Assembly (NCBI RefSeq): GCF_014287585.1
Contig: NZ_JACOOJ010000015.1
Span: 40,335 to 104,334 of the forward strand
Reading direction: 5' to 3'
Origin: Parabacteroides hominis
GTDB lineage: Bacteria; Bacteroidota; Bacteroidia; Bacteroidales; Tannerellaceae
Length of the DNA: 64,000 nt
Position 1 is the first letter of the stretch; every line of letters starts with the position of its first letter. A program made the translations under genes and the position numbers. The notes below the pieces were generated by a model. That model was given only the letters and a program-made list of their open reading frames with translations, was not told the origin of the DNA and searched no databases. This document shows positions 12,731 to 27,127 of this stretch, piece by piece.

Positions 12731-12735
12731 ACGGC

Positions 12736-14447: not shown

Positions 14448-14560
14448 AAAAATCCATATCTTATTTCAAAATACCGTTAATCAATAGCTCACCCGATAAT
14501 CATTTGGGATAAATAAATTCATTATTTAGCGCGGTTGCTCTATTTTATTTTACTATTTTA

Positions 14561-14591
14561 TTTGTTTATCCGCAGAAAGAGTTATATTTGC
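14561..14591 (+). promoter_or_regulatory. Promoter of the candidate ncRNA
   Basis: TTTG at 14561-14564, an 18-bp spacer, and the exact -7 box TATATTTGC at 14583-14591. This is the Bacteroidetes housekeeping sigma (sigma-ABfr) promoter form. Transcription should begin a few bases downstream, right at the 5' side of the long stem. Confidence 0.75.
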
Positions 14592-14593
14592 AA

Positions 14594-14760
14594 CACTCAA
14601 CATGTTATCCAAGATGCGGTGAACCTGCATCTGATTCGTTGCGGGCATTTTTATGTCCGTAACGTTCCTCATAGGCGGTTCCGTACCCCCGTGGGGAGCA
14701 TTAATGTGCCTCCAGCATCTTGGATGTGTTGAGTAACGGGAAAGGCGGAACCGTTCTATT
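14594..14760 (+). ncRNA. Candidate structured non-coding RNA, about 165 nt
   Basis: A closing stem pairs ACTCAACA (14595-14602) with TGTTGAGT (14727-14734) and ATCCAAGATGC (14607-14617) with GCATCTTGGAT (14715-14725), 19 base pairs with a small internal bulge. Inside are at least two more hairpins: CGTT-CGG-GCAT with its partner at about 14638-14664, and CCCC/GGGG with loop CGT at about 14692-14702. An AACGG/CCGTT hairpin (14735-14755) followed by CTATTTT could terminate it. The layout (long closing stem, promoter immediately 5') resembles 6S-type RNAs, but I do not recognise the sequence; a leader RNA for the small ORF downstream is the alternative. Confidence 0.65.
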
Positions 14761-14789
14761 TTCGCCCCACTTTTAATACCTTATTTATT

Positions 14790-14891
14790 ATGGAAGCAGC
14801 AAACACCTTGACACTTCCGAAAGAAGCAGTCCAAGAAATCTTCTTCAGGGAAGAAGCTACTCGCATCCGGAAAGCGTTTGCCAACAAATGA
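14790..14891 (+). CDS. Possible 33-aa small protein
   Basis: An ATG at 14790 opens a 33-codon frame ending TGA at 14889-14891. The product is charged and helical in character (LPKEAVQEIFFREEATR). It lies 30 bp after the structured RNA, with an A/T-rich leader. No homologue recognised; it might be the gene controlled by the RNA or chance coding. Confidence 0.35.
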   Translation: MEAANTLTLPKEAVQEIFFREEATRIRKAFANK

Positions 14892-15211
14892 ATCGGTCCG
14901 ATCGGTTTTGATAATATAAGAAATTGACAATAACCCCTTTTTCGCCCTTTTTCTATTTCACTTTAAATTCCGGTTTATACAGATCTTACACTTTGTCCGG
15001 CAGGGCGTTTTTATCTGACACGGGGAGAGATGGGGTCGGCAACTTGTCCGGTTATCGACCCTGTTTTGTCAGCCTGACCGGGAAAAATAGGAAAATGTGA
15101 TAATCCTCAACTCCCGGAGAATTGAATATTTGCGGACGAAACCGTGTCGCATTCCGTTTATGCCAAAAGCATTTTTCCGCATTTCCTCCGTGAGTTGCGC
15201 AGAACTTTTCC

Positions 15212-15313
15212 ATGACGACCGTCTTCGTTGCCATGAACATTGACTTCATAGGCAATGATGACCGTCTTCATGGCGATAAAGTCAATCTTCACGGCGGCGA
15301 AGACGGTCGTCAT
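15212..15313. repeat. Long imperfect inverted repeat
   Basis: ATGACGACCGTCTTCG at 15212-15227 is the exact reverse complement of 15298-15313, and GACCGTCTTCATGGCGATAA-type sequence recurs between them as a degenerate direct repeat (about 40-bp period). The whole stretch can fold into one large hairpin. Minus-strand frames across it give repetitive Thr-Val-Phe/Ile-Ala peptides that are probably not proteins. Confidence 0.65.
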
Positions 15314-15506
15314 CGTAGAAAACCGGCAAATAGATGAAAAAAGCTCCGTTTTGTCTCCCAAAAAGAGAAATCCGAACTCTTTCATCATGAAGCCTGCCAA
15401 TCGTTAAATAACCTGTTTTTTACAATAAGGGTGTGCAAAAGAAAGAAACAATAAGCCACCTTATGTTTATCCCCAACAATTATCGGGTAAGTCTGATTAA
15501 TCCCAT

Positions 15507-15538
15507 AAAAAAAATCCCGACGATAGTAAATCGTCGGG
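15507..15538 (-). terminator. Terminator, probably the original tRNA-Ser terminator displaced by the island
   Basis: On the minus strand, CCCGACGAT (15530-15538) pairs with ATCGTCGGG (15516-15524) across a 5-base loop, followed by A and eight T. It directly abuts the left 16-bp attachment repeat. In the inferred empty site it would follow the tRNA-Ser(GGA) 3' end. Confidence 0.85.
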
Positions 15539-15552
15539 GTTTCTGCGGAGAG
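15537..15552. repeat. Left attachment-site repeat of the immunity island
   Basis: GGGTTTCTGCGGAGAG, identical to 26633-26648; the flanking bases on both sides differ. It is the far copy, next to the displaced terminator. Confidence 0.85.
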
Positions 15553-15893
15553 ATAGGTAAATGAACCTTACCTTGCAATCCACTCAATATCAGCGTTATA
15601 TTTTCAATGAACTATCTTAGGCTACGACTTGGTTACGATTTCAAAAGACTTGTATTTGTCTTTATCTGTCTGCTCCTTGTCTGCATTAATCTTGGATTTA
15701 AAAGTACAGGTTATTTTTGAATTATACAAGTCTTTGATTATTAATATTTCGACTTACTTGTCCTAAAACAACTTCGTTACGATTTACTTAGGCGTCCGCT
15801 GATTTATTTTTGTTAATCTATTACCTGTAATGTGTCTTGTATGGGAATAAAATGTTATTTTCGGGATTGGAAAATATAAAAGACTACCATACA
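15553..15893. other. Island left end, non-coding
   Basis: About 340 bp without a credible gene. AAGACTTGTAT near 15643 and its reverse complement ATACAAGTCTT near 15724 could be recombinase arm sites. Several ACTTGGTTACGATTT/TTCGTTACGATTTAC-like repeats occur (about 15628-15645 and 15772-15788). Confidence 0.4.
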
Positions 15894-16514
15894 ATGAAAA
15901 TTACCCGTGATGAATTGCTGATAGCTGCGTTCAAGCTGTTTATGTCCGTGAACTATGAGAAAGCCAGTTTTGCGGAACTTGGAAAGATGCTCGGAATGTC
16001 GAAAGCCGGAATATTCAAATACTACAAGAACAAACAGGAACTATTCATTGCCGTAGTGGATAGGTTTTGGTTCAGCACGCAAAACCCACAAAACAAATTC
16101 ACTGAAACGAACGGCAGGTTTGCCGAATTTATAGACGAATATGTGCGTGGCGTACAACGGACGATGGATATGCTGGGCAATCTGATAGGTGTGGATAAAG
16201 ACAAGTTGGCGCAAGGAAAATTCACATACCACGCCCAATATTTTCATTTTCTGTTTCAATTGCTGCAATACGACCCTGACGCAAAAGAGAAGCTCCGTAA
16301 TCTTGCAAATGACGATTACGCTTATTGGCGTACCGCCATACAGCGTGCGATAGATAGCGGAGAGTTGAGAAAGGATGTGGATGTAGAGGATGCGGTAGTC
16401 ATGTTCCGGCAGGTTTACATGGGGCTGTCCTTTGAAATGTCTTTTCTCGGCGGATTGGACACCGCGCGACTTGCCAGACATCTGTATGCCATTTACTCTC
16501 TGTTGAAACGTTAG
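15894..16514 (+). CDS. TetR/AcrR-family transcriptional regulator
   Basis: 206 residues from the ATG at 15894; a 19-residue longer frame (from 15837) is less likely because the helix-turn-helix domain begins at MKITRDELLIAAFKLF. The HTH reads SFAELGKMLGMSKAGIFKYYKNKQELF, typical TetR. The C-terminal ligand domain is divergent. It is the first gene of the island, and it may control the recombinase 157 bp downstream or the array; this is inference from position only. Confidence 0.9.
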   Translation: MKITRDELLIAAFKLFMSVNYEKASFAELGKMLGMSKAGIFKYYKNKQELFIAVVDRFWFSTQNPQNKFTETNGRFAEFIDEYVRGVQRTMDMLGNLIGVDKDKLAQGKFTYHAQYFHFLFQLLQYDPDAKEKLRNLANDDYAYWRTAIQRAIDSGELRKDVDVEDAVVMFRQVYMGLSFEMSFLGGLDTARLARHLYAIYSLLKR

Positions 16515-16613
16515 GCAGTGCCTCCCCCGGCACATATTCCTTGTAAATCTGCCTTTCAGTGCAAAAAAAAGATAAAAAGAAAACACTCGTTCACTTTATT
16601 CGGGATAGTTTTA

Positions 16614-16622
16614 TAACTTTGG
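16614..16622 (+). promoter_or_regulatory. -7 promoter box before the recombinase
   Basis: TAACTTTGG, one mismatch from TAnnTTTGC, 48 bp upstream of the ATG at 16671. Confidence 0.5.
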
Positions 16623-16670
16623 CAATATCATTTAATTAGTGATAGCTGTAACGTTATAAACCAGTCCTAT

Positions 16671-17519
16671 ATGGAAGCAGACAAACAACGGGGAAGTATC
16701 GTACTGACAAAGCAAAATATAGACGGTCAGGACTATATACGGATTGATTATGGAAATAATCAGGGTATTGCCTTACTGCTTTCCGGAGATAGTGGAATTA
16801 AGATAGCCGGAAACGGAAGTGCCTATATACAGGCATCCGCTTTCCGGCTTCCTGCGTTTTATGACCGCTATTCCCCCTACGCCTACATAAATGCAATCAA
16901 GTTCTACTATGAGAAAGTCCGAAAAGGCAAACGGCAATACTATGGCGGGATAGTCCGTGCCAAAGAATACAAGGCTTTGCCCGAAGTGCTAAGCCGGGAA
17001 GAAATGAAGAACATCTTTGCACAGATACCTAACCGGAACCATCGGTGCATGATTTCATTGATACATTCTGCCGGATTGCGGCGAAGTGAACTTCTGAACC
17101 TGACCCCTAAAGACATTATCAGTGAACGGATGCTGATAAGGGTAGCTGGCAAAGGAAAGAAATGCAGATATTCCCTGCTGTCAGAAAAGGCACTCAACGA
17201 ACTAAGGGTTTATTACAAAGAATACCGAACGCAAAAGTGGCTTTTTGAGGGAGAACAGGCAGGTGAACAATATTCACCCAGTGCATTGGTGAAAATACTG
17301 AAAGAAGCAGCCCAAAAAGCCGGAATAAAGCACCGGGTACACCTGCACATGCTCCGTCACACTTTCGCTACTCACCTGCTGGAACAAGGGACTGACCTTA
17401 GAACTATTCAGGAACTTATGGGGCATAATGATATAAAAACGACTGCTATTTATTTGCACGTATCAAATGCTCACAAAGCCAAAATACCTAATCCACTGGA
17501 CTATTTAGATGATGATTAG
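16671..17519 (+). CDS. Tyrosine recombinase (XerD-like) with a shortened N-terminal half
   Basis: 282 residues. The catalytic domain looks complete: Arg in SAGLRRSELL, the HxxR box HMLRHTFATHLLEQGTD, LMGHNDIKTTAIYLHV with the second His and Tyr nucleophile. The N-terminal half is short (about 110 residues before the catalytic domain instead of the usual 180-200). Part of the SAM-like core-binding domain seems missing, since the text jumps from an arm-like segment to the family's INAIKFYYEKV end. It may be an in-frame deletion derivative. The next frame starts before its stop, but the true next ATG lies beyond. Confidence 0.9.
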   Translation: MEADKQRGSIVLTKQNIDGQDYIRIDYGNNQGIALLLSGDSGIKIAGNGSAYIQASAFRLPAFYDRYSPYAYINAIKFYYEKVRKGKRQYYGGIVRAKEYKALPEVLSREEMKNIFAQIPNRNHRCMISLIHSAGLRRSELLNLTPKDIISERMLIRVAGKGKKCRYSLLSEKALNELRVYYKEYRTQKWLFEGEQAGEQYSPSALVKILKEAAQKAGIKHRVHLHMLRHTFATHLLEQGTDLRTIQELMGHNDIKTTAIYLHVSNAHKAKIPNPLDYLDDD

Positions 17520-17589
17520 GTATAATTTATTAGTAAATAGGAACTACACCATAGGTGTGGTTATTGAATACATTACCAACAGTAGCATT

Positions 17590-18126
17590 ATGGATAAGGA
17601 AACAGAAAAACTTATAGCAGCAATAACAAAAGCCACACGAATGGCTTTCCAAAAGTTGTTTAGCAATAAAGAACATTTCTATTATTGTGTGCTTTTGACA
17701 ACTGGAGAAGGTCTTGCTCCCATTATTTCCGCATGGTCTTGGGAAGCATTAAACAGAGTATCACAAAAATATTCCAAAACATACGCACAAGATATAAAGT
17801 GGTCTTATGCAGACACTCCCTATTATGCTTTTGGGTATGACGAATATTTTGGTGACGTAAAACAACTTTTTGAAAATAGGGTAACTATTGATAATCTGAA
17901 CAATGAAGCATGGAAAAAAGAGTTGGATTTCAGGATAATGGCAATGGTAGAAACAATGTCAATTCTTGATAGCGAGGGATTGTTTGCGCAAAACCAATCA
18001 CGCAAGAATATTCTGATAAATGTAGAATTGATGCCACCTGATGCTTCGAATACACAAAGGGCTTTAGAGTTAAACAACCCAGAAGATATTGAAGATTACC
18101 TTCAAGAAGCTGCTGAAAGTGAATAA
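17590..18126 (+). CDS. DUF4303-family protein, putative immunity protein
   Basis: 178 residues from the ATG at 17590 (the longer frame from 17509 overlaps the recombinase and lacks support). The segments FYYCVLLTTGEGLAPIISAWSWEAL, IKWSYADTPYYAFGYDEYFGDV and FENR fit DUF4303, a family found in polymorphic-toxin immunity loci. First gene of the array; followed by palindromic repeat R1. Cytosolic, no signal peptide. Confidence 0.75.
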   Translation: MDKETEKLIAAITKATRMAFQKLFSNKEHFYYCVLLTTGEGLAPIISAWSWEALNRVSQKYSKTYAQDIKWSYADTPYYAFGYDEYFGDVKQLFENRVTIDNLNNEAWKKELDFRIMAMVETMSILDSEGLFAQNQSRKNILINVELMPPDASNTQRALELNNPEDIEDYLQEAAESE

Positions 18127-18135
18127 TTAAGTTGG

Positions 18136-18193
18136 TAACAAGTAGATAAACTTCCCTAACGGTCAGTTATCTACATCCCATTACCGATAAAAG
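18136..18193 (+). repeat. Gene-boundary palindromic repeat R1
   Basis: Begins TAACAAG, has an 8-bp stem GTAGATAA (18142-18149)/TTATCTAC (18167-18174) around CCCTAACGG, ends CCCATTACCGATAAAAG seven bases before the next ATG. Confidence 0.8.
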
Positions 18194-18199
18194 TACGAT

Positions 18200-18601
18200 A
18201 TGCAAGAAAATAGAACTGATATTAGCCCCACTCTGAAAGACTATTTGGAATATAAAATGTCGGATGATTTCTTTCCGCTTGTTCTGAGAGTTCGTATGGA
18301 ATGGAATGATTCCAATTATCGAAAAATGATTGGTCTTATCAACCGTGTTTTAGAAGAACACAAAAATGAGTATTTCTATCCTTTAGACGTAATTCTCTTT
18401 TTTACAAAAGAAATTAATACGATGTTGAGTATCATATCACATCCGCTATTTGGTAAAACGAGAGAAGATGAGTATAAACTTCTCGTTTCGAAACGTAAAA
18501 AGGAATTGCAAGACTTTCAGAGAGATTTCTTTGTGGGAAATTATTTTGAATATGATTTCTTGCAGTATCTCAATAAAAAAATAATCGGTAACGAAGCGTG
18601 A
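18200..18601 (+). CDS. Unrecognised cassette protein, 133 aa (candidate immunity protein)
   Basis: No family recognised. Acidic, rich in Phe and Tyr, predicted cytosolic and helical (FPLVLRVRMEWND, LQDFQRDFFVGNYFEYDFLQYL). Flanked by R1 and R2; its last codons (GNEA, stop) are encoded inside R2. Size, composition and place in the array suggest an immunity protein, but the cognate toxin is unknown. A search against Imm-family profiles would decide. Confidence 0.7.
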   Translation: MQENRTDISPTLKDYLEYKMSDDFFPLVLRVRMEWNDSNYRKMIGLINRVLEEHKNEYFYPLDVILFFTKEINTMLSIISHPLFGKTREDEYKLLVSKRKKELQDFQRDFFVGNYFEYDFLQYLNKKIIGNEA

Positions 18602-18642
18602 TAACGCTTAACAGCGTTCCCCGCTAACCCATTAGTGGCAAT
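18589..18642 (+). repeat. Gene-boundary palindromic repeat R2
   Basis: Starts TAACGAAGCG within the upstream CDS end; AACGCT/AGCGTT stem with TAAC loop (about 18604-18619), outer AGCG/CGCT pairing, then CTAACCCATTA. Confidence 0.8.
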
Positions 18643-18693
18643 ATGCGAATGAATCGAAAGTCGGTAAAATTTAAAAATAAAAGAAATAAAATT

Positions 18694-19380
18694 ATGGGAT
18701 ATTTTGCAGGATTAGGAGCAGGTAAAGGTTGGAGTACATTTAATTTCATATTGACACCTAAAGAGTTTCAAGAAATATTTGATGGACTGACATATGCTTT
18801 TATAAAAACAGGTACTCGCGTAGAAAATGATTACATAGAATCCAATAAAAAAGATATATTTGAAGGCTATGAAATTTTCTTTAACCAAATACTTATCGGG
18901 CAAACAGCATTAACAAAAGAAAAGGCTTGGAGTATTGAACGAGTAATTCGAGTATCAGTTACAGACAATATTGACAAAGTTTCCTTTAGAGTATGTGAAA
19001 ATGAGAAGAAGGAAATTCTTCCGTTTAAAGTTCTTGAACCAACAGAACCTGTAATTAACATAGCCCCCTTTTATCTTTCTTGGTCAGTTGAACAAGAAAA
19101 AATGAGCGTTGCCTATTTTGACACAAAAGGAGTTATTGGACTACAATTATCTTTTCCGAAATATGTGTCATTTAATTATAGTGATTATGTTGAGACTTCT
19201 GTATATAAAACCGCTGAATTATATGACATATTAATAAGCAGAATAAAAGAAATTTCAAAAAAAGCAAAGGTTGAAACACCAATAAAATTGTATAAGCCAA
19301 ATTTTTGGATAAGTACAAACGCAATTCAGCCAATCAATCAAAATAGATATTTAAAAGAAAATAAATTAAAGATACAATAA
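18694..19380 (+). CDS. Unrecognised cassette protein, 228 aa (candidate immunity protein)
   Basis: Start taken at the ATG 18694 (MGYFAGLGAGKGWSTFNF); an in-frame ATG at 18643 would add 17 basic residues from non-coding-looking sequence. It is very A/T rich. No signal peptide or membrane segments. A LTPKEFQEIFDGL segment resembles the LEPKEFEQGIEYAL start of the LRR-like gene at 21199, hinting at a shared N-terminal element. Function unknown. Confidence 0.7.
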   Translation: MGYFAGLGAGKGWSTFNFILTPKEFQEIFDGLTYAFIKTGTRVENDYIESNKKDIFEGYEIFFNQILIGQTALTKEKAWSIERVIRVSVTDNIDKVSFRVCENEKKEILPFKVLEPTEPVINIAPFYLSWSVEQEKMSVAYFDTKGVIGLQLSFPKYVSFNYSDYVETSVYKTAELYDILISRIKEISKKAKVETPIKLYKPNFWISTNAIQPINQNRYLKENKLKIQ

Positions 19381-19394
19381 AGATATACTGCCAC

Positions 19395-19457
19395 TAACAA
19401 GCGGCTAAATTGCCCTTAAAGGTCGATTAGCCACCAGACATTATCCGCAATAAAAAT
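19395..19457 (+). repeat. Gene-boundary palindromic repeat R3
   Basis: TAACAAGCGG, then GGCTAA (19403-19408) pairing TTAGCC (19427-19432) around TGCCCTTAAAGG, ends GACATTATCCGCAATAAAAA. Confidence 0.8.
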
Positions 19458-19463
19458 AACATC

Positions 19464-19934
19464 ATGGTAAGATTTATAAGTGCAACGTATGAATTACATT
19501 TCGTTGCTGTAGAATTACAAAGACAAATAATAAAAAGAGTCGCAAACTACATTCTTGATAATTTCAATGATTGGACTTGGCAAAATTCAATATATGATAA
19601 TCTGCGTAAAGCCGAAAATCATAACACTGCGGTATTAGTTGTTTTAAGGTTATTTCATCAAAGCGAAATAGAGAAAGGCAAACTAAAGTCGTATGGTCGG
19701 TATATAAAGGCTAAAGAAAGGCTTGTTATTGACCAAATGTTTGCTTTGGATGATTACTTGAATTTGACAGAAGATGAAATTAGGCAAAAACTCTGCAATG
19801 ATATTTGTAATTACGTTTGCGAAATGTTGAAAAAATACAAAGACCGCTTTCAAGATTTTGATGCAATGGCTTTTATTCCATTGTTCAAAATGCAAATGGA
19901 TAAAATTAAAAATAATGAACTTCCATATTTATGA
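19464..19934 (+). CDS. Unrecognised cassette protein, 156 aa (candidate immunity protein)
   Basis: Strongly helical and charged, cytosolic. The segments LQRQIIKRVANYILDNFNDWTWQNSIYDNLRKAE and DFDAMAFIPLFKMQMDKIKNNELPYL have no family I can name. Low GC like its neighbours. Lies between R3 and R4. Confidence 0.7.
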   Translation: MVRFISATYELHFVAVELQRQIIKRVANYILDNFNDWTWQNSIYDNLRKAENHNTAVLVVLRLFHQSEIEKGKLKSYGRYIKAKERLVIDQMFALDDYLNLTEDEIRQKLCNDICNYVCEMLKKYKDRFQDFDAMAFIPLFKMQMDKIKNNELPYL

Positions 19935-19956
19935 TTATGGAAATAAATTAAGCGGA

Positions 19957-20014
19957 TAACATGCACCTGTTCCGCCTAACGGCAGCAAGCTGCAACCCAT
20001 TACCGATATACGAG
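19957..20014 (+). repeat. Gene-boundary palindromic repeat R4
   Basis: TAACATGCACC, with CCG (19972-19974)/CGG (19980-19982) around CCTAA, TGCA (19962-19965)/TGCA (19991-19994), then ACCCATTACCGATA. Confidence 0.75.
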
Positions 20015-20039
20015 TGAAAACTAATAAAACAGATAAAGA

Positions 20040-20498
20040 ATGGACTTAAAGAATGTAATAGATAAAGGTAGCTGCCCGATAATAAATTCCATTATTTTCG
20101 CTAATGGAGATTTATATGTATTGGATGTTTTTGCCATGAATATAAGTGTATTATGCAAATCTTATATTGACAGTTATTTTGATTTTAATTCGATAGATGA
20201 CGTAAGTCACTTTGATGTATGCTGTTCATGTGAAACGGATCTATATGAAGTGTGCGGTGGAGATGGAAGTTTTGGGAGCGATGGAACAATCTATGTAATT
20301 GACAAGAAAACAAATTCACCTGTATGGTTCTTGTTTTTAGACTGCATAAATCCGATTGAAAAAATCAAAATTATAGACGGGGTTATTTATGCGTATAATA
20401 ATAACGGCTGTTTGCTTATATCTATAGCAAGTCCCCTAAACAATATAAAATTCATTGAAGAAGATAACAATATCGGTAACAATCACCTTAACTGCTAA
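20040..20498 (+). CDS. Unrecognised cassette protein, 152 aa (candidate immunity protein)
   Basis: Beta-rich cytosolic protein with a Cys cluster (HFDVCCSCETDLYEVCGGDG) that might bind metal, followed by IYVIDKKTNSPVWFLFLDCINP. The C-terminal NIGNNHLNC and the stop are encoded within repeat R5. No family recognised. Confidence 0.7.
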   Translation: MDLKNVIDKGSCPIINSIIFANGDLYVLDVFAMNISVLCKSYIDSYFDFNSIDDVSHFDVCCSCETDLYEVCGGDGSFGSDGTIYVIDKKTNSPVWFLFLDCINPIEKIKIIDGVIYAYNNNGCLLISIASPLNNIKFIEEDNNIGNNHLNC

Positions 20499-20533
20499 AC
20501 GCAGTTAGCTGAAACACATTAATAGTAATAAGA
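20477..20533 (+). repeat. Gene-boundary palindromic repeat R5
   Basis: TAACAATCACC, 7-bp stem TAACTGC (20489-20495)/GCAGTTA (20501-20507) with loop TAAAC, ends ACACATTAATAGTAATAAG. Confidence 0.8.
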
Positions 20534-20545
20534 AAGACATACAAT

Positions 20546-21136
20546 ATGAATTACTTTTTACAAATTACATCACGACCTAATTATCCATTAATATTGGATG
20601 AAAGTCAAAATCCCCATATTTCCTCAAAATTAGGTTCTGACCTAAATTTGGGTAACTATATTCATGAATATATATCTTCTCCGTTAGTCTATCGGGATGC
20701 AGAAAATAGTACTGTTTCTTTTGACCGCTTAATCACTTATGATGTTCTCAATACTGTTTATGGGGGACAAGTCGTATCAGAACGTATCAGGCGGGTAATA
20801 GAGGAACATTTCCCAAATGAGGTACAATTCTTTGATGCCATATTCTATTATAAAGGAAATATGTGTAATAGCTATTCCGCTATGAATATCCATAACCATA
20901 TAGAATGTTACAATATGGAGAAAAGTATCTATTCTATTTCTCCTGTGGATAAAAGTTATGAATTTGAGAAACGCACATTAATAGCATCACCATTAGAGGA
21001 ATATGGCATTAATTATAATATAGTCCGATGCTCGTTTGATAATCAAATAGTGGTATCGGAAATATTCAGAAAAGTGATTAAGGCTAACAAATTTAATTGT
21101 ATGTCTTTTGCTAAGGAACTGGAAATATACTATTAA
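20546..21136 (+). CDS. Imm11/Imm43-like (DUF1629-type) putative immunity protein
   Basis: 196 residues, no signal peptide. Segment order resembles DUF1629-type immunity proteins: an N-terminal YFLQITSRPNYPL strand, NTVYGGQVVSERIRRVIEEHF, VQFFDAIFYYKG, then HIECYNMEKSIYSISP and a final NQIVVSEIFRKVIKANKFNCMSF. In these families the 'VSERIRRVIE' helix is conserved. Its stop codon is the first TAA of repeat R6. The assignment to a specific Imm family is tentative. Confidence 0.65.
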   Translation: MNYFLQITSRPNYPLILDESQNPHISSKLGSDLNLGNYIHEYISSPLVYRDAENSTVSFDRLITYDVLNTVYGGQVVSERIRRVIEEHFPNEVQFFDAIFYYKGNMCNSYSAMNIHNHIECYNMEKSIYSISPVDKSYEFEKRTLIASPLEEYGINYNIVRCSFDNQIVVSEIFRKVIKANKFNCMSFAKELEIYY

Positions 21137-21193
21137 CAAGCCAAGATAGCTGCTAAACGCAGCTCCTTGTCAACCCATTATCAATAAAAAAGT
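21134..21193 (+). repeat. Gene-boundary palindromic repeat R6
   Basis: TAACAAGCC (the TAA is the upstream stop), 6-bp stem AGCTGC (21148-21153)/GCAGCT (21159-21164) with loop TAAAC, ends CAACCCATTATCAATAAAA. Confidence 0.85.
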
Positions 21194-21198
21194 TGAGT

Positions 21199-22053
21199 AT
21201 GCGAATACATGATTCTGAAACAAATAAATGCAAGAAAAAATTAATGCTCGAACCAAAAGAGTTTGAACAAGGTATAGAATATGCCCTTGCGAATGGTTGT
21301 GACGGTTTACAAATAGATACGTGGAATATTGCTGACGCAACAATGGATTTTAGGCTTTTTGAGAAAGTCGCCAATCAAATCGTATTCTTATCTTTTATGA
21401 ATATTAGTACCACGAATGTAATCAATCTTGAACATATATATTCTCTTGAAAGATTAGAAACATTCTATTGTCAGAAAGTAGATTTGCATATAGATTTCGC
21501 TCGTTTTTCATCACTTCGGAATATTGGTATTTTTTATAATAAGAGCTTTCTAAATTTGGATAAACTGGAGCGATTGGAGAGTGCAGTTATTAGTAAATTT
21601 GCGGGAAAAGATATGTTATTATTTTCCGGTTGGAAATCCATAAAAATATTGCATATCTATCAATCCCAAATAGAATGTTTGCGAGGCATAGAAAATTTGA
21701 TTCGGATTGATACCCTGCTTTTTGCACATAACAGAAAGCTAACCGATATTAGCAACATCAACCTTTTGGATTATGTCGGAGAGGTTTCATTCGAGAAAAA
21801 TAGCAGGCTGCGTGATTATTCTGTACTGGCGAACAATCGAAATATTCATAATCTTTTCATTTCGGATTTGGACGGTTTGGAATTTATCAAAAGCATGAAA
21901 TCCTTGTCATCATTCAGTTTTTGGAATTGCAAAAACGGAGATTTATCTCCCTTACTGGCAAACCCTATATTGAAAGAAGTATATTTCACACCAAACAAAA
22001 AACATTATTCGCATACATTAGAACAAATTAAAATATTGATAACAAGCGAATGA
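21199..22053 (+). CDS. Leucine-rich-repeat-like cassette protein, 284 aa
   Basis: Start at ATG 21199; a TTG two codons earlier is unlikely. After a ~30-residue N-terminal segment, irregular LRR-type units follow (NLEHIYSLERLETFYCQKV, LDKLERLESAVISKF, GIENLIRIDTLLFAHNRKLTDISNINLLDYV, LDGLEFIKSMKSLSSFSFWNCKNGDLSPL). LRR proteins of this kind occur in immunity arrays. No signal peptide. The last four codons and stop (ITSE) fall within R7. The role as immunity protein is inferred from context. Confidence 0.7.
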   Translation: MRIHDSETNKCKKKLMLEPKEFEQGIEYALANGCDGLQIDTWNIADATMDFRLFEKVANQIVFLSFMNISTTNVINLEHIYSLERLETFYCQKVDLHIDFARFSSLRNIGIFYNKSFLNLDKLERLESAVISKFAGKDMLLFSGWKSIKILHIYQSQIECLRGIENLIRIDTLLFAHNRKLTDISNINLLDYVGEVSFEKNSRLRDYSVLANNRNIHNLFISDLDGLEFIKSMKSLSSFSFWNCKNGDLSPLLANPILKEVYFTPNKKHYSHTLEQIKILITSE

Positions 22054-22099
22054 ACTGCCCTAACGGTCAGGCTATTCACCAAACATTAGAAACAATTAG
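22040..22099 (+). repeat. Gene-boundary palindromic repeat R7
   Basis: TAACAAGCG, GAAT (22048-22051)/ATTC (22074-22077), CTG/CAG and CC/GG around CTAACGG, then ACATTAGAAACAATTAG. Confidence 0.8.
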
Positions 22100-22104
22100 T
22101 GCGC

Positions 22105-23220
22105 ATGAAATATAGTGAAACCATAAATTCATTGATAAGAAAGGGGTTGAATGAAGTAAATCATTCAATCAATGGACATTTGCCTTTATCTATAAGACGT
22201 GAGATACTGCAAACAATCAATGAGCCATGCGTCATTGGGAAAATAAGCATTTCATGCGCATTGAAAGTATATCCGATATGGAATGATTTTTTCAAGAATG
22301 ATACTGAAATAATCGGATTGATAAAACAGTCGGAGAAATTTCTATTAGGGCAGATAAATGAAAAAGAGTTGTTAGGTAATGCCGAACATTTAGAAGTGTT
22401 CGTTCAAGATTATAACAAAGAGGACAATATTATGGCAATGTTTGCGGGTATGACTGCCGTTCATGCCGCATACGATGTTCTTACAAGTGGGGGTATGGAA
22501 GAATGTGTTTCGGATGAAGAAGCGTTACAGAACCCTGACACATGGGACACTGCTTTTATTGCAAGTTTAGCCTATAACGGTGGGGCTGTCGCTTTAGACG
22601 CAATCAATCACGACCGTAATAAAGAATTTTGGAATTGGTATCTGACTGATTGTATCAGAATAGCTTTTTTCAACGATAAATTGCCATATCCTCCCACCAC
22701 TTCAATAGTATCTGCCAAATACTTTTCGGGGAATAATATTAAGGAGTATCGTACTCAACCAAATATTTGGAAAGAAAATGCAGAATGTCGTTCCCGCATG
22801 AATGACATCAAAGGAATTTTAGTCAAAATAATGGATATTACCCATTGGACTAAAAGTGATTTCTATTTTTATCATGTTGGAACTGCTTCTTATACCCAAG
22901 TTTTCTATTATAAAGGAAATGAACTTGTCAAATTTAACCTTGACATAAATATTTCAATGTATCTTTCCCGAAAAGTGGGAGAATTGAAAGATTTGATGTA
23001 TTCCTTATGTTCGCAAGAGGGAGCTTTTTATCTATGTAAAATAACGATAGGTAGAGAAATTACAATGGATATAAAGTTTGCTTATAACACGAGGGATAAA
23101 GTTCTGCAAAAGTCCTTCTTCGATAGTGATTTCAGTGAGGATTTTGAGAAATATCCACGAGCTAAGAAATTCATTCCTGAATGGTTATCGGATATACTTA
23201 AAAGGAAAAAAAGAATTTAG
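22105..23220 (+). CDS. Imm5-like / YezG-like (DUF600-type) fused immunity protein
   Basis: 371 residues from the ATG at 22105. The N-terminal ~200 residues resemble Imm5: a conserved WDTAFIASLAYNGGAV near residue 145 and FWNWYLTDCIRIA near 174. The C-terminal ~130 residues (YFYHVGTASYTQVFYYKG, KVGELKDLMYSL, DIKFAYNTRDK, FEKYPRAKKFIPEWL) resemble YezG/DUF600 immunity proteins. Two immunity domains in one chain suggest a polyimmunity protein neutralising two toxin types. Domain calls are from recalled family patterns and need a profile search. Confidence 0.75.
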   Translation: MKYSETINSLIRKGLNEVNHSINGHLPLSIRREILQTINEPCVIGKISISCALKVYPIWNDFFKNDTEIIGLIKQSEKFLLGQINEKELLGNAEHLEVFVQDYNKEDNIMAMFAGMTAVHAAYDVLTSGGMEECVSDEEALQNPDTWDTAFIASLAYNGGAVALDAINHDRNKEFWNWYLTDCIRIAFFNDKLPYPPTTSIVSAKYFSGNNIKEYRTQPNIWKENAECRSRMNDIKGILVKIMDITHWTKSDFYFYHVGTASYTQVFYYKGNELVKFNLDINISMYLSRKVGELKDLMYSLCSQEGAFYLCKITIGREITMDIKFAYNTRDKVLQKSFFDSDFSEDFEKYPRAKKFIPEWLSDILKRKKRI

Positions 23221-23224
23221 TTTC

Positions 23225-23277
23225 TAACAGCGCAGGATAACGGCAAACCGTTCCCTGCTATACATTAACATCAAAAC
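23225..23277 (+). repeat. Gene-boundary palindromic repeat R8
   Basis: TAACAGC, nested stems GCAGG (23232-23236)/CCTGC (23254-23258) and AACGG (23239-23243)/CCGTT (23248-23252), ends ACATTAACATCAAAACAAT. Confidence 0.85.
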
Positions 23278-23289
23278 AATGCACCATAT

Positions 23290-24048
23290 ATGGAAGTACG
23301 AGATAAATACGGAACAATAGAAAGTTTCTCAAATTTGATTGAAGAAGAAAGCGGTTTTATCGTAGAAGTTGAAAAAACAATCGAGAGGCTCAAAGACAGT
23401 GAGATCAAAGGTATTCAACTGTATCCCCGTCCGAATTTGGATGTATTAGAAGATTATAAGGCAGAAAAACTGTATTACAAATATGACATACTGCTCGCTT
23501 CTTATTCCGTTGGTAAAGACATTCGGGAAATAGAAAAGCAATATAAGGACATCGTACCATTGGTAAAAAGGTCTTGGAAGTTAAGACAAGACTACGTTAT
23601 GTTATTGCATATTCTTTCTATGGGCATCCTGCTTCAAGCAGATACCAACATTTTCCGGAATTTGGCAAATGTTGTGACAGAAAGTAAACTGAACGATTTT
23701 CTGATAGATTATCTGATAGGCTATAAACTCACTGATTATTTACCGATGAGTGAGCATCAGTTTAAATGGAAACGACCTTATCCATTTCTGGATACTATTA
23801 TTTCTGTTGCCCAAACCAATAAGGAAGAGGCTGTGAAACAATTGAAACTGTATTTGACAAAGAAATGGTACAGAGGTCATTCGGATACAGGCTGGTATAA
23901 TATCCATGTAATCAATTCAGGCTCACATTCCGGCTATTGGAGTTTTGAAAGCGGAGCATTAGTCAAGGTCTTAGGATTGGACGACAGTAGTCTGAAAGGC
24001 TTGCCCTACTATCCTTACGATATGGTACACTGGAACGACACTAAATAA
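23290..24048 (+). CDS. PoNi-type immunity protein (DUF1910/DUF1911)
   Basis: 252 residues, the usual length. An N-terminal helical DUF1910-like region is followed by the strongly conserved DUF1911 end: LTKKWYRGHSDTGWYNIH, then SGYWSFESGALVKVLGLDDSSLKGLPYYPYDMVHW. PoNi proteins neutralise PoNe-type DNase toxins delivered by type VI or related systems. No PoNe toxin is present in the window, so it is an orphan immunity gene. Last gene of the repeat-separated array: the next starts only 9 bp later without a repeat. Confidence 0.9.
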   Translation: MEVRDKYGTIESFSNLIEEESGFIVEVEKTIERLKDSEIKGIQLYPRPNLDVLEDYKAEKLYYKYDILLASYSVGKDIREIEKQYKDIVPLVKRSWKLRQDYVMLLHILSMGILLQADTNIFRNLANVVTESKLNDFLIDYLIGYKLTDYLPMSEHQFKWKRPYPFLDTIISVAQTNKEEAVKQLKLYLTKKWYRGHSDTGWYNIHVINSGSHSGYWSFESGALVKVLGLDDSSLKGLPYYPYDMVHWNDTK

Positions 24049-24057
24049 AGCGAAGGT

Positions 24058-24579
24058 ATGAGTTACTTTGTTTATGCTTATTTGACGGAAGCCGATAAGG
24101 TCAAGTCCATTTATGGGGCTTGCGACGATTTGCTGATGAACCAACTAAAGGCTTCATTAAAGCAAGAACTTGACAGGCTGAACGAATATTTCAGCGACAG
24201 CCTGAATACGGATAAAGATGCTTATGCGGCATTAGCTGACATAGTGAACGGAGAAATCCGTTATCCAGAAATCGCTTTCATGTACGGGTATGTATATGAA
24301 AAGATTTGCAGCCATTACGGGAAGCAAATCTATGATGCGGAAAACCTATGGCAGTTGGATAGTCAAAGCACATTTATCCCAATTCCGCTTAGCGATGATT
24401 TTCCCTACATTATCAGCATACCCGTTTCCGAACTGGAAAGCAAACGGACGGAATATACTTCGTTGCAAGAGGGTGACGGTATCGGGGATTATGACTACGA
24501 GCAAGAAATGGACGACTTGAATTTCATTTTCGATGAAGCCATTGAAGCGCAAAAAGACCTTGTGATTATGGTGTATTGA
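24058..24579 (+). CDS. DUF7691-like protein, possible immunity protein
   Basis: 173 residues, starts MSYFVYAYLTEADKVKSIYG, which I recall from DUF7691-type proteins of immunity loci. Acidic C terminus (DYDYEQEMDDLNFIFDEAIEAQ). No signal peptide. GC content is higher here than in the array to the left, so this and the following genes may form a separate module. Function is not established. Confidence 0.7.
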   Translation: MSYFVYAYLTEADKVKSIYGACDDLLMNQLKASLKQELDRLNEYFSDSLNTDKDAYAALADIVNGEIRYPEIAFMYGYVYEKICSHYGKQIYDAENLWQLDSQSTFIPIPLSDDFPYIISIPVSELESKRTEYTSLQEGDGIGDYDYEQEMDDLNFIFDEAIEAQKDLVIMVY

Positions 24580-24592
24580 TATAAATGTGCGT

Positions 24593-25015
24593 ATGAAGAA
24601 AGTTATATTACTTATTGTATTGCTAAGCCTTTACGGTTGCGGATTTGTTTACGAGCGTCAAATCACAGGTAACTATTACCTGATAGCCACAGACGTGATG
24701 GAAGATTTGGCGGTATGCTACCGTGATAGCCCCGATACCTATGCGACTATTGGGGGAAGCGGTGTGTATGAAGTGGGCAACGATGAGCATTTCATCCTCA
24801 CGAAGAAATACAAGGAAGTGCCAAAACCGGGACGGGACAGCCTTTTCACTACCTACGATAAAAGCATAACGGAATATTGCATCATCCCGATAGACAATAC
24901 ACAGAAGTGGAATGCGACGGAAAACTACTTCATACTGCCCACGAAAAAGGAATTTGAAGCCAAAAGGAAAGAACTCGGCGTGTCGGATGATATAACTTTC
25001 AGGAAACTACAATAG
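24593..25015 (+). CDS. Small lipoprotein, DUF3997-like
   Basis: 140 residues from the ATG at 24593; a GTG two codons earlier is unlikely. The lipoprotein signal ends SLYGC. The mature part begins GFVYERQITGNYYLIATD, reminiscent of DUF3997, and is otherwise unremarkable. As a lipoprotein in an immunity island it could protect against a periplasm-acting toxin; this is inference. Confidence 0.7.
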   Translation: MKKVILLIVLLSLYGCGFVYERQITGNYYLIATDVMEDLAVCYRDSPDTYATIGGSGVYEVGNDEHFILTKKYKEVPKPGRDSLFTTYDKSITEYCIIPIDNTQKWNATENYFILPTKKEFEAKRKELGVSDDITFRKLQ

Positions 25016-25021
25016 AATAAG

Positions 25022-25501
25022 ATGAAAAATATAAACGAAACCAGCAGCCGTTTTGAACAAATGCGCTCAAATAGTAACGGCAAGAAATACAGCTATTGTT
25101 TCTTCGACTATCTGTATTACAGGCTTTATGTCACCTACAAGAAGCACAACGACCCGCCACGTTTTAGTGCTTGCTGCGTGTTTGCCGCCACTTTCATGAT
25201 TGCCCTGTTCTTTTTGAGCATAGCTGCAAACTGTATTTTTACGGATTTCTTCTTTTCCCGGAAGAATTTCACGGAACTGCAAGGCGGACTAATCTTTATC
25301 AGCGTGGCAATATTGTTTTGCATCATCCCCTTTTACCTGCGGTACACCCGGAAGCGGACTGCCGCCATACTGCTGAAATACAAAGGCAACAAATGGAACA
25401 GGATTATCCCGTCTTGGGTAATATATACTTTCCCGATATGGGGGATCTTGGCAGGGGATAGGAATATGTATGTTGATATTCAACTAAGTAACAGACGATA
25501 G
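25022..25501 (+). CDS. Two-segment membrane protein, paralogue of the next gene
   Basis: 159 residues with two hydrophobic segments (about 57-77 and 89-106) and a third near the C terminus. The N-terminal part, RFEQMRSNSNGKKYSYCFFDYLYYRLY, matches the start of the following gene's product, so the two are tandem paralogues. No family recognised. Only 2 bp separates it from the next ATG. Confidence 0.75.
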   Translation: MKNINETSSRFEQMRSNSNGKKYSYCFFDYLYYRLYVTYKKHNDPPRFSACCVFAATFMIALFFLSIAANCIFTDFFFSRKNFTELQGGLIFISVAILFCIIPFYLRYTRKRTAAILLKYKGNKWNRIIPSWVIYTFPIWGILAGDRNMYVDIQLSNRR

Positions 25502-25503
25502 AA

Positions 25504-25932
25504 ATGAAAAGAGGTATAAATAAAACGGATAACTATTTTGAGCGTAACCGCCAAAAGTCAAGCCAAAAGAATTACAGGTTTTATTTCTTTGATTATTTGT
25601 ATTTCAAGGGTGAACAATGGTACAAGAAAGCTCCGTGTACCGGTGACTTTGTTTTGTGTGAATATTGGTATTTGATTGTGGCTATTCCTGCATTTGTATT
25701 TACAGATGAAGTGAGCCGCTTGGGAGATTATGCAGTTATCGCTTATTATGCTTTGCTTATCTTGTTCCCGTTCATTTTTCCCACTATCCGCTATCGCAAA
25801 GACCGGAAATCGGCTCTCGTCAGACACTACCGCCACTCGAAAAGCAACGGGGTGACAATGGCTTTTATCATAATCCTCCCGTTTGTACTGTTGTTTTTTG
25901 AACTTTGGCTGTTCGACAGGTGGATGGGTTGA
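25504..25932 (+). CDS. Two-segment membrane protein, paralogue of the previous gene
   Basis: 142 residues. The N terminus (YFERNRQKSSQKNYRFYFFDYLYFKG) parallels its upstream neighbour. Hydrophobic segments cover about 59-74, 80-96 and 117-136. It may protect against a membrane-acting toxin or be of other function; nothing beyond location supports this. Confidence 0.75.
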   Translation: MKRGINKTDNYFERNRQKSSQKNYRFYFFDYLYFKGEQWYKKAPCTGDFVLCEYWYLIVAIPAFVFTDEVSRLGDYAVIAYYALLILFPFIFPTIRYRKDRKSALVRHYRHSKSNGVTMAFIIILPFVLLFFELWLFDRWMG

Positions 25933-25989
25933 TTGCAGATTATGGTAATCCGGAGTACACATGAAAATAGTTATATAACCATTATAAAG

Positions 25990-26538
25990 ATGAAAGCAAC
26001 ATTGAAATACCCGATATTCAAGTTCCGACCGCGCGGAAATTTGATTTACATCTTTTGGAAAGAGAGCAAAACAACGCAGCTTGCCATACTAAATAAGTGT
26101 AAGGGGTGGAAAGGCGAGATAGTGATAGATTCCACCGGGACAAAGTACATTGTCAAACGCTCTTACATGACCGGTTGGAAAGGCATACACGGCTTTACGG
26201 GCATGAGTACGGGGATGATTAGCTACGAAACGGAATATGAAGATAACCCCGAACCTTTCTCCCTGCGCCAATTGCAAGAAAGGATAGCGGAGAGACATCC
26301 CAAGACACGATGGTTCCGGGAAGAATGCTGGGATAGCGTGGAAGATTTCCGGCAAACGATTTTCGCCTGTAAGTCCTTTGAGGAACTTGCCGAAACGATG
26401 GAGCCGAAGCACGAATTTACTGTTTGGGAACGTATTCAGGATTATTTCTTCCGTGGATCCTTCTTGATGCTCGGCGGCATGCTCCTTTATATAATATGGC
26501 TGTTCACAAAAAAGGCATGGTTATGGATTGTTGGATAA
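25990..26538 (+). CDS. Protein with C-terminal membrane anchor, unknown function
   Basis: 182 residues from the ATG at 25990; the longer frame from 25933 starts in the preceding stop region and is less likely. The soluble N-terminal part contains WKGEIVIDSTGTKYIVKR and EECWDSVEDFRQTIFACKSFEEL; the last ~25 residues (SFLMLGGMLLYIIWLFTKKAWLWIV) form a tail anchor. Last gene of the island before the right attachment repeat. Confidence 0.7.
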   Translation: MKATLKYPIFKFRPRGNLIYIFWKESKTTQLAILNKCKGWKGEIVIDSTGTKYIVKRSYMTGWKGIHGFTGMSTGMISYETEYEDNPEPFSLRQLQERIAERHPKTRWFREECWDSVEDFRQTIFACKSFEELAETMEPKHEFTVWERIQDYFFRGSFLMLGGMLLYIIWLFTKKAWLWIVG

Positions 26539-26632
26539 TATGTTTTAAAAATGCAGTTATTGAATATGGAAAAACAGATTACATCACTGCTGTTGGCAAA
26601 CAATCTTCCTATTTTTGACCCTTTTTGTCTTT

Positions 26633-26648
26633 GGGTTTCTGCGGAGAG
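26633..26648. repeat. Right attachment-site repeat of the immunity island
   Basis: GGGTTTCTGCGGAGAG, the same 16 bases as 15537-15552. It overlaps the 3' acceptor end of the tRNA-Ser(GGA) gene (minus strand). Confidence 0.85.
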
Positions 26649-26729
26649 GGCGGGATTCGAACCCGCGAAACCCTTTAGGGGTTTACACGCTTTCCAGGCG
26701 TGCCTCTTCAACCACTCGAGCACCTCTCC
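26642..26729 (-). tRNA. tRNA-Ser (anticodon GGA)
   Basis: Minus strand. Acceptor GGAGAGG (26723-26729) pairs CCTCTCC (26643-26649); anticodon stem CACGC/GCGTG encloses CTGGAAA, anticodon GGA; a long variable arm and the GGTTCGAATCC T-loop are present, as in Ser tRNAs. CCA is not fully encoded. The 3' end is the integration target of the island; it is intact because the element restores it. Confidence 0.95.
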
Positions 26730-26783
26730 TTTTCGGTTGAATTAAGTAAATCAGGAAGCGACCAGCCTCCATAAAACGTAAAA

Positions 26784-26800
26784 AGCAGCTTTTGCTGCTT
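26784..26800 (-). terminator. Terminator after tRNA-Ser(TGA)
   Basis: Minus strand GCAGC-AAAA-GCTGC followed by TTTTT, 5 bases beyond the tRNA end. Confidence 0.75.
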
Positions 26801-26804
26801 TCAG

Positions 26805-26889
26805 CGGAGAAAGAGGGATTCGAACCCCCGGAACCTCTCAGTTCAACGGTTTTCAAGACCGCCGCAATCGACCACTCTGCCATCTCTCC
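26805..26889 (-). tRNA. tRNA-Ser (anticodon TGA)
   Basis: Minus strand. Acceptor GGAGAGA (26883-26889) with TTTCTCC (26806-26812); anticodon stem CGGT/ACCG encloses CTTGAAA, anticodon TGA; variable arm and GGTTCGAATCC T-arm are present. It lies 75 bp upstream of the other Ser tRNA. Confidence 0.95.
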
Positions 26890-26995
26890 TTGTCTCTAAG
26901 ACGGGTGCAAAAGTAGATGGTTTATTTGAATTATGCAAGCATTTCGTTTCATTTCTTTTCACTTTTTCTGCATTTCATTTCTCTTTTTCTGATTT

Positions 26996-27127
26996 TCAGA
27001 CACATAAAAATATGTTCCGGATTGATCCGGCTGCAAGAATCATAGTTATGACCAAACCGATACAGGCCACTATAGCAATTACTTCCGTACTTTTGCGGGA
27101 CAGATACTCCCCGATGTTCTTTTTCAT
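26996..27127 (-). CDS. Small single-span membrane protein, 43 aa
   Basis: From the ATG at 27127 (a longer frame upstream has poor composition). The N terminus is basic and amphipathic (MKKNIGEYLSRKSTEV) followed by one hydrophobic helix (IAIVACIGLVITMILAA). Clear small membrane protein character; no homologue recognised. Confidence 0.5.
   Translation of the reverse strand: MKKNIGEYLSRKSTEVIAIVACIGLVITMILAAGSIRNIFLCV

Follow-up and report, generated by a model that had tools for sequence, protein, structure and literature searches.

Our study reports on an 11.1-kb island at tRNA-Ser in a 64,000-nt stretch of Parabacteroides hominis DNA (the window), which carries the 16-bp repeat GGGTTTCTGCGGAGAG at both ends (15537-15552 and 26633-26648) and, between them, a TetR gene, a tyrosine recombinase gene and 14 small genes on one strand (17590-26538). 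We consider it likely, with good though not full confidence, that this island is a recombinase-associated acquired interbacterial defence (rAID) array, probably the left end of an integrative and conjugative element (ICE), built by integron-type site-specific recombination. In the proposed mechanism a cassette would consist of usually one small, often immunity-type gene and a downstream foldable site of the plan TAAC-hairpin-CATTA; cassettes would enter at an attI-like site next to an Xer/IntI-related recombinase accompanied by a TetR gene, and would leave or move through exchange within CATTA. We propose that the recombinase of the array catalyses this exchange, that one folded DNA strand may be its substrate and that the array proteins may neutralise toxins. 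What can be read directly from the DNA is that cassettes have their edges at the core, that hairpin pairing is conserved, that an attI-like site is present, that the arrays are linked to the recombinase and that a TetR gene comes with operator-like palindromes; these observations suggest that rAID is an integron-type platform with a non-IntI recombinase, which would be the catalyst.

Cassette edges, junction elements and the first site

The comparison covered 59 loci: the window, 42 further loci of clade A, whose recombinases are 67-100% identical to that of Bacteroides congonensis locus L001 (all but L160 at least 73%), and 16 loci of clade B at about 45-49%. Titles of the clade-A records L001-L030 name Bacteroides, Phocaeicola, Parabacteroides, Xylanibacter, Mediterranea, Coprobacter and unclassified Bacteroidales; the locus of L001 entered the array comparison as L121. 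The window shares 17568-18183 and 22084-23267 with B. congonensis, in a different order, and 19439-20002 with L133, and each of the three has CATTA as its exact boundary. When the arrays are taken together, CATT and ATTA rank among the commonest words at homology ends: of the clade-A ends, CATT marks 281 of 741 on the left (30 expected) and 272 of 756 on the right (31 expected), and in clade B 40 of 104 and 52 of 108 (4.4 and 3.7 expected). These ends are not independent, since every comparison was counted in both directions. Where identity reaches 98%, the core lies at 146 of 233 ends on the left and 176 of 235 on the right, with 5.7% and 3.8% for random positions, and at 85% or more at 385 of 866 and 377 of 884; the core share climbs with identity, which fits fading homology.

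Between otherwise collinear arrays there are 25 exact indels, not all of them independent because L128 and L129 are near-identical copies. The core stands at the junction in 22, and nine sit at the first site after the recombinase. In an alternative reading, RecA-dependent homologous recombination between similar intergenic sequences would shuffle the genes, the hairpins being shared padding or terminators; in its favour, the intergenic elements fall into similar types that give some homology, and the junction overlap is 21 nt in two indels and 14 nt in one. In 20 of the 25, however, the overlap is 3-8 nt, and a cassette can follow clearly different hairpins while the hairpin travels with its upstream gene, so that we regard homologous shuffling as unlikely. 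A cassette with five copies (L121, L146, L148) is preceded by five clearly different sequences, and the two commonest cassettes have seven contexts each at below 70% ungapped identity, an overcount because some of these contexts are one hairpin type shifted by a base. Judged by these alignments, cassettes are shared among arrays with exact edges at the core, as site-specific exchange would have it. Genome G024 holds four clade-A arrays (L146-L149) and one of clade B (L171); two of these, L148 and L149, are distinguished by single cassettes whose junctions carry CATTA.

Eight junctions of the window carry a 43-49-nt element, and all eight begin with TAAC and end in CATTA (Table 1). Over the arrays, TAAC occurs in the searched stretch of 303 of 316 breakpoint-supported CATTA sites (first site excluded), mostly 44-48 nt from the end, and a second cluster at 34 nt is an inner TAAC. 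Pairing was assessed on 64 non-redundant sites of 75, with both ends anchored. The lower stem, formed by positions 7-12 counted from the 5' end and positions 10-15 counted from the 3' end, is 73% Watson-Crick, against 20-29% in ten other registers and 39% (sd 2.7, maximum 47% of 2000) after halves were swapped between sites, and one stem position pairs as A-T (21 times), G-C (17), C-G (12) and T-A (3). The inner stem is 79% Watson-Crick against 59% (sd 2.1) with halves swapped; it fits best when shifted by one base (63%, compared with 33% and 29%), which means that the 5' (upstream) arm usually has an extra base. By these measures the pairing of the hairpin is conserved while its sequence varies.

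A strict scan for such sites returned 262 on the gene strand and one on the opposite strand (in the window) in 599 kb downstream of recombinases, none upstream of recombinases (305,664 strand-bases), none in the 231,094 strand-bases of L179-L196, where some loci overlap, and 0.2 for each shuffled set. Within the window it found seven on the plus strand and one on the minus strand of the array, and none on either strand of the 52.9 kb of flanks. The scan is no independent proof of sensitivity, because its thresholds were set after such sites had been seen, and it misses one of the eight window sites. The hairpin could also be an RNA element, a terminator, stabiliser or translation signal, whose edges coincide since genes are exchanged whole; its place between a neighbouring stop and start, with the start codon at a median of 20 nt past the core, would suit such a role. 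Whole-gene exchange, however, predicts no ends at one 5-bp core behind different hairpins, and the core also closes the attI-like stretch by the recombinase, both of which make an RNA element very unlikely as the explanation of these edges.

That first stretch, which contains CACC and runs from the recombinase stop to (A,C)ATTA, is present in 37 of 43 clade-A sequences, the window included. In pairwise comparison, 85 of 666 pairs reach 90% identity in the 55 nt that precede the core, and 79 of these 85 fall below 50% in the 55 nt that follow it. Clade B has a first stretch of its own with the core (A,G)TTA, found in 14 of 16 loci by the pattern used. Bacteroides ovatus BFG-107 (L237) and B. 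congonensis (L121) are 98.9% identical over 2,081 bp comprising TetR gene, recombinase and first site, and 96.4% identical over 5,977 aligned bp beyond the array; between these, their arrays have three stretches in common, which keep their order but are separated by different cassettes, the first two running from core to core. Position and junctions are what place a putative attI-like site beside the recombinase. In four loci (L124, L137, L138 and L151) ATTCAAGG stands at the expected place of the first array core, perhaps as the remnant of a very short cassette.

Table 1. Features of the window and of related loci discussed in the text.
Feature	Position	Strand	Basis
attL, 16-bp direct repeat	15537..15552	.	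repeat comparison; empty site in relative
TetR-family regulator	15894..16514	+	PF00440; conserved upstream of clade-A recombinases
Degenerate remnant of operator-like inverted repeat, arm 3	16582..16591	.	comparison of clade-A loci
Bacteroides-type -7 box TAACTTTG before recombinase	16614..16621	+	motif match
Tyrosine recombinase, 282 aa, without core-binding domain (L001: 367 aa)	16671..17519	+	PF00589; comparison with L001
attI-like stretch, ends CATTA (17571-17575)	17520..17575	+	comparison of clade-A sequences
Cassette 1: DUF4303	17590..18126	+	Pfam; same cassette elsewhere in order in L001/L121
attC-like element 1	18136..18183	+	strict scan, homology ends
Cassette 2, 133 aa, no family assigned	18200..18601	+	ORF; Pfam/NCBIfam scans
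attC-like element 2	18589..18634	+	strict scan
Cassette 3, 245 aa	18643..19380	+	relatives 23-27% identical in two clade-B arrays and G001
attC-like element 3	19395..19443	+	strict scan
Cassette 4, 156 aa	19464..19934	+	whole cassette 96.8% identical in L133, CATTA to CATTA
attC-like element 4	19957..20002	+	strict scan, homology ends
Cassette 5, 152 aa, no family assigned	20040..20498	+	ORF; Pfam
attC-like element 5	20477..20521	+	strict scan
Cassette 6: Imm11	20546..21136	+	Pfam
attC-like element 6	21134..21180	+	strict scan
Cassette 7: LRR-like protein	21193..22053	+	LRR matches under Pfam cut-off
attC-like element 7	22040..22088	+	strict scan, homology ends
Cassette 8: Imm5	22099..23220	+	Pfam; 99.7% identical in L001/L121, CATTA to CATTA
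attC-like element 8, last	23225..23267	+	escapes strict scan; located by homology ends
PoNi_N/PoNi_C immunity protein	23290..24048	+	Pfam
DUF7691 protein	24058..24579	+	Pfam
Four packed distal genes, no elements between	24587..26538	+	open reading frames (ORFs), comparison with arrays
attR, overlaps tRNA-Ser 3' end	26633..26648	.	repeat search
tRNA-Ser(gga), target gene	26641..26729	-	tRNA call
Loci with 83-128-nt TAAC..GTTA hairpins	L036, L047, L052, L054, L056, L057, L061, L066, L067, L080	same as recombinase

The recombinase, the adjacent TetR gene and the points against exchange at the core

Compared with the L001 protein, the recombinase of the window is short by 85 residues; it keeps the catalytic domain but has no match to the SAM-like core-binding domain (PF13495), which scores 52.7 bits in L001. 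The solved proteins most closely related to the L001 recombinase by sequence are IntI4 (123 bits), an XerC-like protein (116), XerA (108) and XerD (98), and its NCBIfam scores are 206.5 for the XerA/integron type (cut-off 220), 185.7 for IntI (TIGR02249; 265), 183.2 for XerC (335) and 180.7 for XerD (330). The window's copy scores 146.8 bits with TIGR02249, under the cut-off of 265 for membership of the IntI family. From GxRxxE to HxLRH we count, from the alignment, 91 residues in the L001 protein against 134 in IntI4; the spacing is 91-92 throughout L031-L080, the 50 distant relatives, and 91 in four of the five gut recombinases measured, the fifth giving an unrelated motif hit. On these scores and spacings the recombinase is as like IntI as Xer, but the IntI insertion is absent. 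A scan of viral contigs for the recombinase gave no match.

A TetR gene, 39-94% identical to that of the window, lies directly upstream of the recombinase in 41 of the 42 other clade-A loci, and none of the window type was found within 2.5 kb of the recombinase in the 16 loci of clade B. The exception in clade A is L149, where an operator-like palindrome precedes the recombinase, yet a window-type TetR gene was not detected upstream. Every one of the 43 clade-A sequences has a TAnnTTTG box no more than 130 nt ahead of the recombinase, a frequency that stands without a control set; the box of the window is of the Bacteroides -7 type. Within the 50 nt before the box, 30 of the 43 sequences have an inverted repeat with arms of at least 7, where shuffles lead one to expect 4; the arms measure 4 to 12 in 41 of the other 42 loci, and 3 in L136 and in the window. 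We propose that the TetR protein represses the recombinase and that this switch has decayed in the window together with the recombinase itself. With the core-binding domain lost and the operator degenerate, the array of the window is probably fixed, and only inherited or carried along; the island would then be a rAID array with a worn-out recombinase, its cassettes probably frozen in place.

Several observations weigh against cassette exchange at the core as a full account. The attI-like stretch is missing from six of the 43 clade-A sequences (L134, L148, L149, L150, L157 and L177), and in four of the 37 that have it, the loci with ATTCAAGG, the core comes only about 100 nt past the stop. No element lies between the last six genes of the window (beyond 23267), and homologies of its distal genes (23931-26605) end away from the core. 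Among 858 interior homologies at 85% identity or more, 365 have the core at neither end, 294 at one and 199 at both; some of the off-core ends may be scars of other origin. Three of the 25 indels lack the core, and they are those with 21 nt (two) and 14 nt (one) of shared junction sequence; one of the three is a deletion inside the window's recombinase. The hairpin pairing emerged only once both ends were anchored: RNAalifold on a MAFFT alignment of the 64 sites gave no consensus pairs and the derived covariance model was structureless, likely because of register shifts between site types. Nine of the 14 genes of the window have no Pfam family above cut-off. Finally, the recombinase is without the IntI insertion, which PMC8138268 describes as essential for integron function; the arrays would be an exception to this if the recombinase acts as we propose.

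The island, its genes and its mobile relatives

The first-pass annotation of this DNA had described a tRNA-Ser island with 16-bp direct repeats, a TetR regulator, a tyrosine recombinase and about 14 small same-strand genes without recognisable toxin, secretion or conjugation genes, which it read as an orphan immunity array of rAID type. Both repeats were located, the right one overlapping the 3' end of tRNA-Ser(gga); Pfam recovered the regulator (PF00440) and the recombinase (PF00589), and 14 genes were counted. It had overlooked the loss of the core-binding domain in this copy of the recombinase, the attC-like elements that bound most genes together with the sharing of cassettes, and the position of related islands, which form an ICE's left end at a tRNA-Ser-like site. 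It had also tied its reading to immunity families in profile searches and to the genes not being fixed core genes at a place with no empty site; the searches matched Imm11, Imm5 and PoNi, and relative L194 carries an empty site in which window positions 15496-15551 are joined directly to 26640-27010, with both tRNA-Ser genes present.

The flanking gene of L194 is 92% identical to that of the window and that of a second relative, L195, 91%; at 1e-100 this gene matched three of the 123 genomes in the family of G005 (Parabacteroides gordonii, the genome of L005). L195 and L196 match the right flank only and give no information on the empty site. These matches place the host of the window close to two genomes in the P. 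gordonii family (L194 and L195). In the genus of G001, by contrast, the flanking gene reached at most 70% identity among the matches listed, and the host probably belongs elsewhere. About 1 kb beside attL (14486-15495) is also missing from L194, where 14485 runs straight into 15496, and to the left of the island 9578-13899 holds an efflux operon of RND type, whose membrane-fusion protein was matched by Pfam and whose transporter was recognised by eye.

In B. congonensis, ORFs that by eye resemble AraC and RteC lie past the array, and beyond them come ORFs that look like genes for mobilisation and transfer; its left end is tRNA-Ser-like, and a tRNA-Ser gene stands about 91 kb off with an att-like copy between. 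Records of B. ovatus and Parabacteroides distasonis show TetR, integrase and immunity genes, then AraC or helix-turn-helix, RteC and primase; the segment common to the P. distasonis record and eight loci starts at a TCTGCGGA-like sequence, and nearly identical ICE ends enclose different cassettes. Pfam and NCBIfam found no conjugation genes in the island of the window, while transfer-type ORFs are seen by eye beyond the L001 array. The arrays of the relatives adjoin primase, AraC and RteC genes, as well as transfer genes recognised by eye, and in this resemble CTnDOT-like ICEs of Bacteroidales, whereas the window island is without AraC, RteC, primase or transfer genes. Most likely, it belongs to a family of ICEs in gut Bacteroidales, of which only the left end would have been kept. 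A search of a plasmid collection gave 115 records with any match, eight of which cover at least 80% of the query, two of these at 77% identity or more. Two loci filed as plasmids, L237 (NZ_CP081918.1) and L238 (NZ_OY725747.1), may be chromosome pieces because chromosomal-looking genes surround the array (mtgA; glmM and rpe).

The same boundaries bear on whether the tyrosine recombinase is only the integrase that put the island into tRNA-Ser, the array having grown by rare illegitimate events. It is the sole recombinase found in the island and lies near attL, the conserved left segment of the relatives likewise starts at tRNA-Ser-like sequence and holds it, and no other ICE integrase was identified, no further search for one having been made. 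However, the array core CATTA is unlike the tRNA-Ser repeat, and the recombinases of clade B and of more distant loci also have downstream hairpin arrays; the absence of a tRNA gene from the DNA examined at 18 of 23 relative loci adds little, because of the distance to the tRNA in B. congonensis. We hold a mere integrase to be quite unlikely, and keep to a recombinase that would act on the array.

Five of the 14 genes matched Pfam families above gathering score (DUF4303, Imm11, Imm5, PoNi_N/PoNi_C and DUF7691), three of these being named immunity families, and NCBIfam added nothing above cut-off for the 14. DUF4303, PoNi and Imm5 had been named from the letters of the sequence and each was matched; a YezG-type family, also named, is absent among the Pfam and NCBIfam matches. 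No toxin, secretion or conjugation family reached its cut-off within the island in either collection, the few matches lying far lower (for example TcpF, 14.4 bits against 1100). GC content is 29-37% in the first nine genes and 40-44% in the last five, and the distal gene at 24587-25015 is the counterpart of a DUF3997 gene in the B. ovatus island. A toxin partner was sought for the 245-aa cassette: its single match outside the collected arrays, a distant relative at L229/L236 (G001:C1:390000-402000), stands by eye amid immunity-type genes, with no obvious toxin in the 3.6 kb inspected, and the strict scan found no attC-like elements in 12 kb.

Over all arrays, 366 cassettes have a median length of 638 bp and 34% GC; 314 hold one ORF (at least 60 aa), the longest ORF is on the array strand in 358, and five have no ORF of 50 aa. 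The cargo falls into 166 families at 40% identity, of which 145 representatives were scanned (Pfam at 0.001, NCBIfam at 1e-5, and PADLOC), and one representative may match several Pfam families. The 25 commonest of 54 Pfam families include SMI1_KNR4 (9 representatives), SUKH_6 (6), SUKH_5 (4), LRR_4 (4) and Imm11 (3), with Imm5, Imm43, Imm51 and Imm-NTF2 in two each and Imm9, Imm22 (DUF4284), Imm68, PoNi_C and DUF4303 in one each. NCBIfam added Bfi1-type immunity in two and TaeI-type immunity in one; its single matches include ankyrin effectors, internalins, a type III chaperone and MzaA, and these may reflect repeats. PADLOC matched one family, in one of the 145. In the two named relatives, B. 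ovatus and P. distasonis, neighbours of the recombinase are annotated as SMI1/KNR4, Imm26, PoNi-like, type VI secretion system immunity protein Tdi1 domain-containing and hypothetical proteins. PMC10470768 reports protection against Tde1 by orphan immunity proteins that belong to acquired interbacterial defence systems.

Relation to rAID arrays and integrons

In PMC12247911, rAID arrays are sought as at least two co-directional genes below 41% GC, the mechanism of their biogenesis is called an area of active research, and AID-1 of Bacteroides (GA3 immunity clusters), with its orphan immunity genes, is contrasted with the recombinase-associated system. The definition of rAID also includes homology to the reference recombinase BF9343_RS08045, the reference array being that of B. 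fragilis NCTC 9343, and protection from T6SS toxins. The window has a tyrosine recombinase upstream of the array (PF00589; core-binding domain absent), nine consecutive short, co-oriented genes at 29-37% GC, orphan immunity genes (Imm11, Imm5 and PoNi) with no adjacent toxin family above cut-off, and a conserved intergenic motif in its eight TAAC..CATTA elements. By those published features that were testable, the window island is, as far as its sequence goes, a rAID array, and the first-pass reading stands on these features of the definition in PMC12247911. It has orphan immunity genes in common with AID-1 as well. The immunity families of the window (Imm5, Imm11, PoNi) are joined in its relatives by SMI1/KNR4, Tdi1-domain and Imm26 proteins. 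To the rAID description our analysis adds the resolution of the motif as an attC-like foldable site, the attI-like site, cassette edges at the core and the TetR/operator module.

In integrons, attC sites follow the consensus RYYYAAC..GTTRRRY, and intI is divergent from the cassettes and under SOS control. The arrays resemble integrons in their mostly single-gene cassettes, which vary beside the recombinase and whose exact edges emerge from genome comparison, in a foldable site with TAAC/TTA ends and a variable loop, and in an attI-like site by the recombinase. They differ in the core CATTA, in a recombinase that points the same way as the cassettes, has a TetR gene beside it, scores under the IntI cut-off and is without the IntI insertion. 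An attC site spans 57-142 nt and is built of the arms R''-L'' and L'-R' with an unpaired spacer, the R''-L'' arm having extrahelical bases (PMC2727003); the array site has its extra base on the upstream arm, as attC does, and measures 43-49 nt in the window. Classical attC sites, sought by consensus with arms, numbered fewer than two in every locus of L001-L080 and zero in L121-L178; the window has one isolated match on the minus strand. Among the open-licence PMC papers listed we found none that links rAID with integrons, although the 2019 rAID study of Ross may already liken the two.

Of 50 loci whose recombinases are further removed (52-61% identity in the matched part; many environmental or aquatic by title), 10 have downstream hairpins of the plan TAAC..(N)GTTA, 22 in all and 83-128 nt long, against one on the opposite strand, three upstream (409,707 bases, both strands) and none in control sequences; at least one of the 22 looks spurious. 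Perhaps these ten loci are non-IntI integrons. L054 contains four copies of a 132-nt repeat with genes between. Sites of the rAID type are merely scattered in L031-L080, where seven loci have two or more (both strands together) and the same relaxed scan gave three in controls. We put forward, as a proposal whose chances we judge even, that Bacteroidota own a second, non-IntI class of integrons, with an Xer/IntI-related recombinase without the IntI insertion, an attI-like site, short attC-like hairpins and mostly single-gene cassettes; the gut branch, with TetR in its main group, would carry immunity genes on ICEs, and environmental branches would have the 83-128-nt hairpins. The basis of this class is thin and consists, in the wider group, of the hairpins.

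With the first site and the foldable site defined and cassette edges placed at a 5-bp core, gene gain and reordering in rAID arrays become directly testable, and these features provide a simple sequence rule for candidate immunity genes, namely whatever sits between two TAAC..CATTA elements after such a recombinase. Our findings suggest that integron-type capture may need neither IntI nor its special insertion. A cassette mechanism may explain how collections of immunity genes are built, and with it how a strain could acquire its shields gene by gene.

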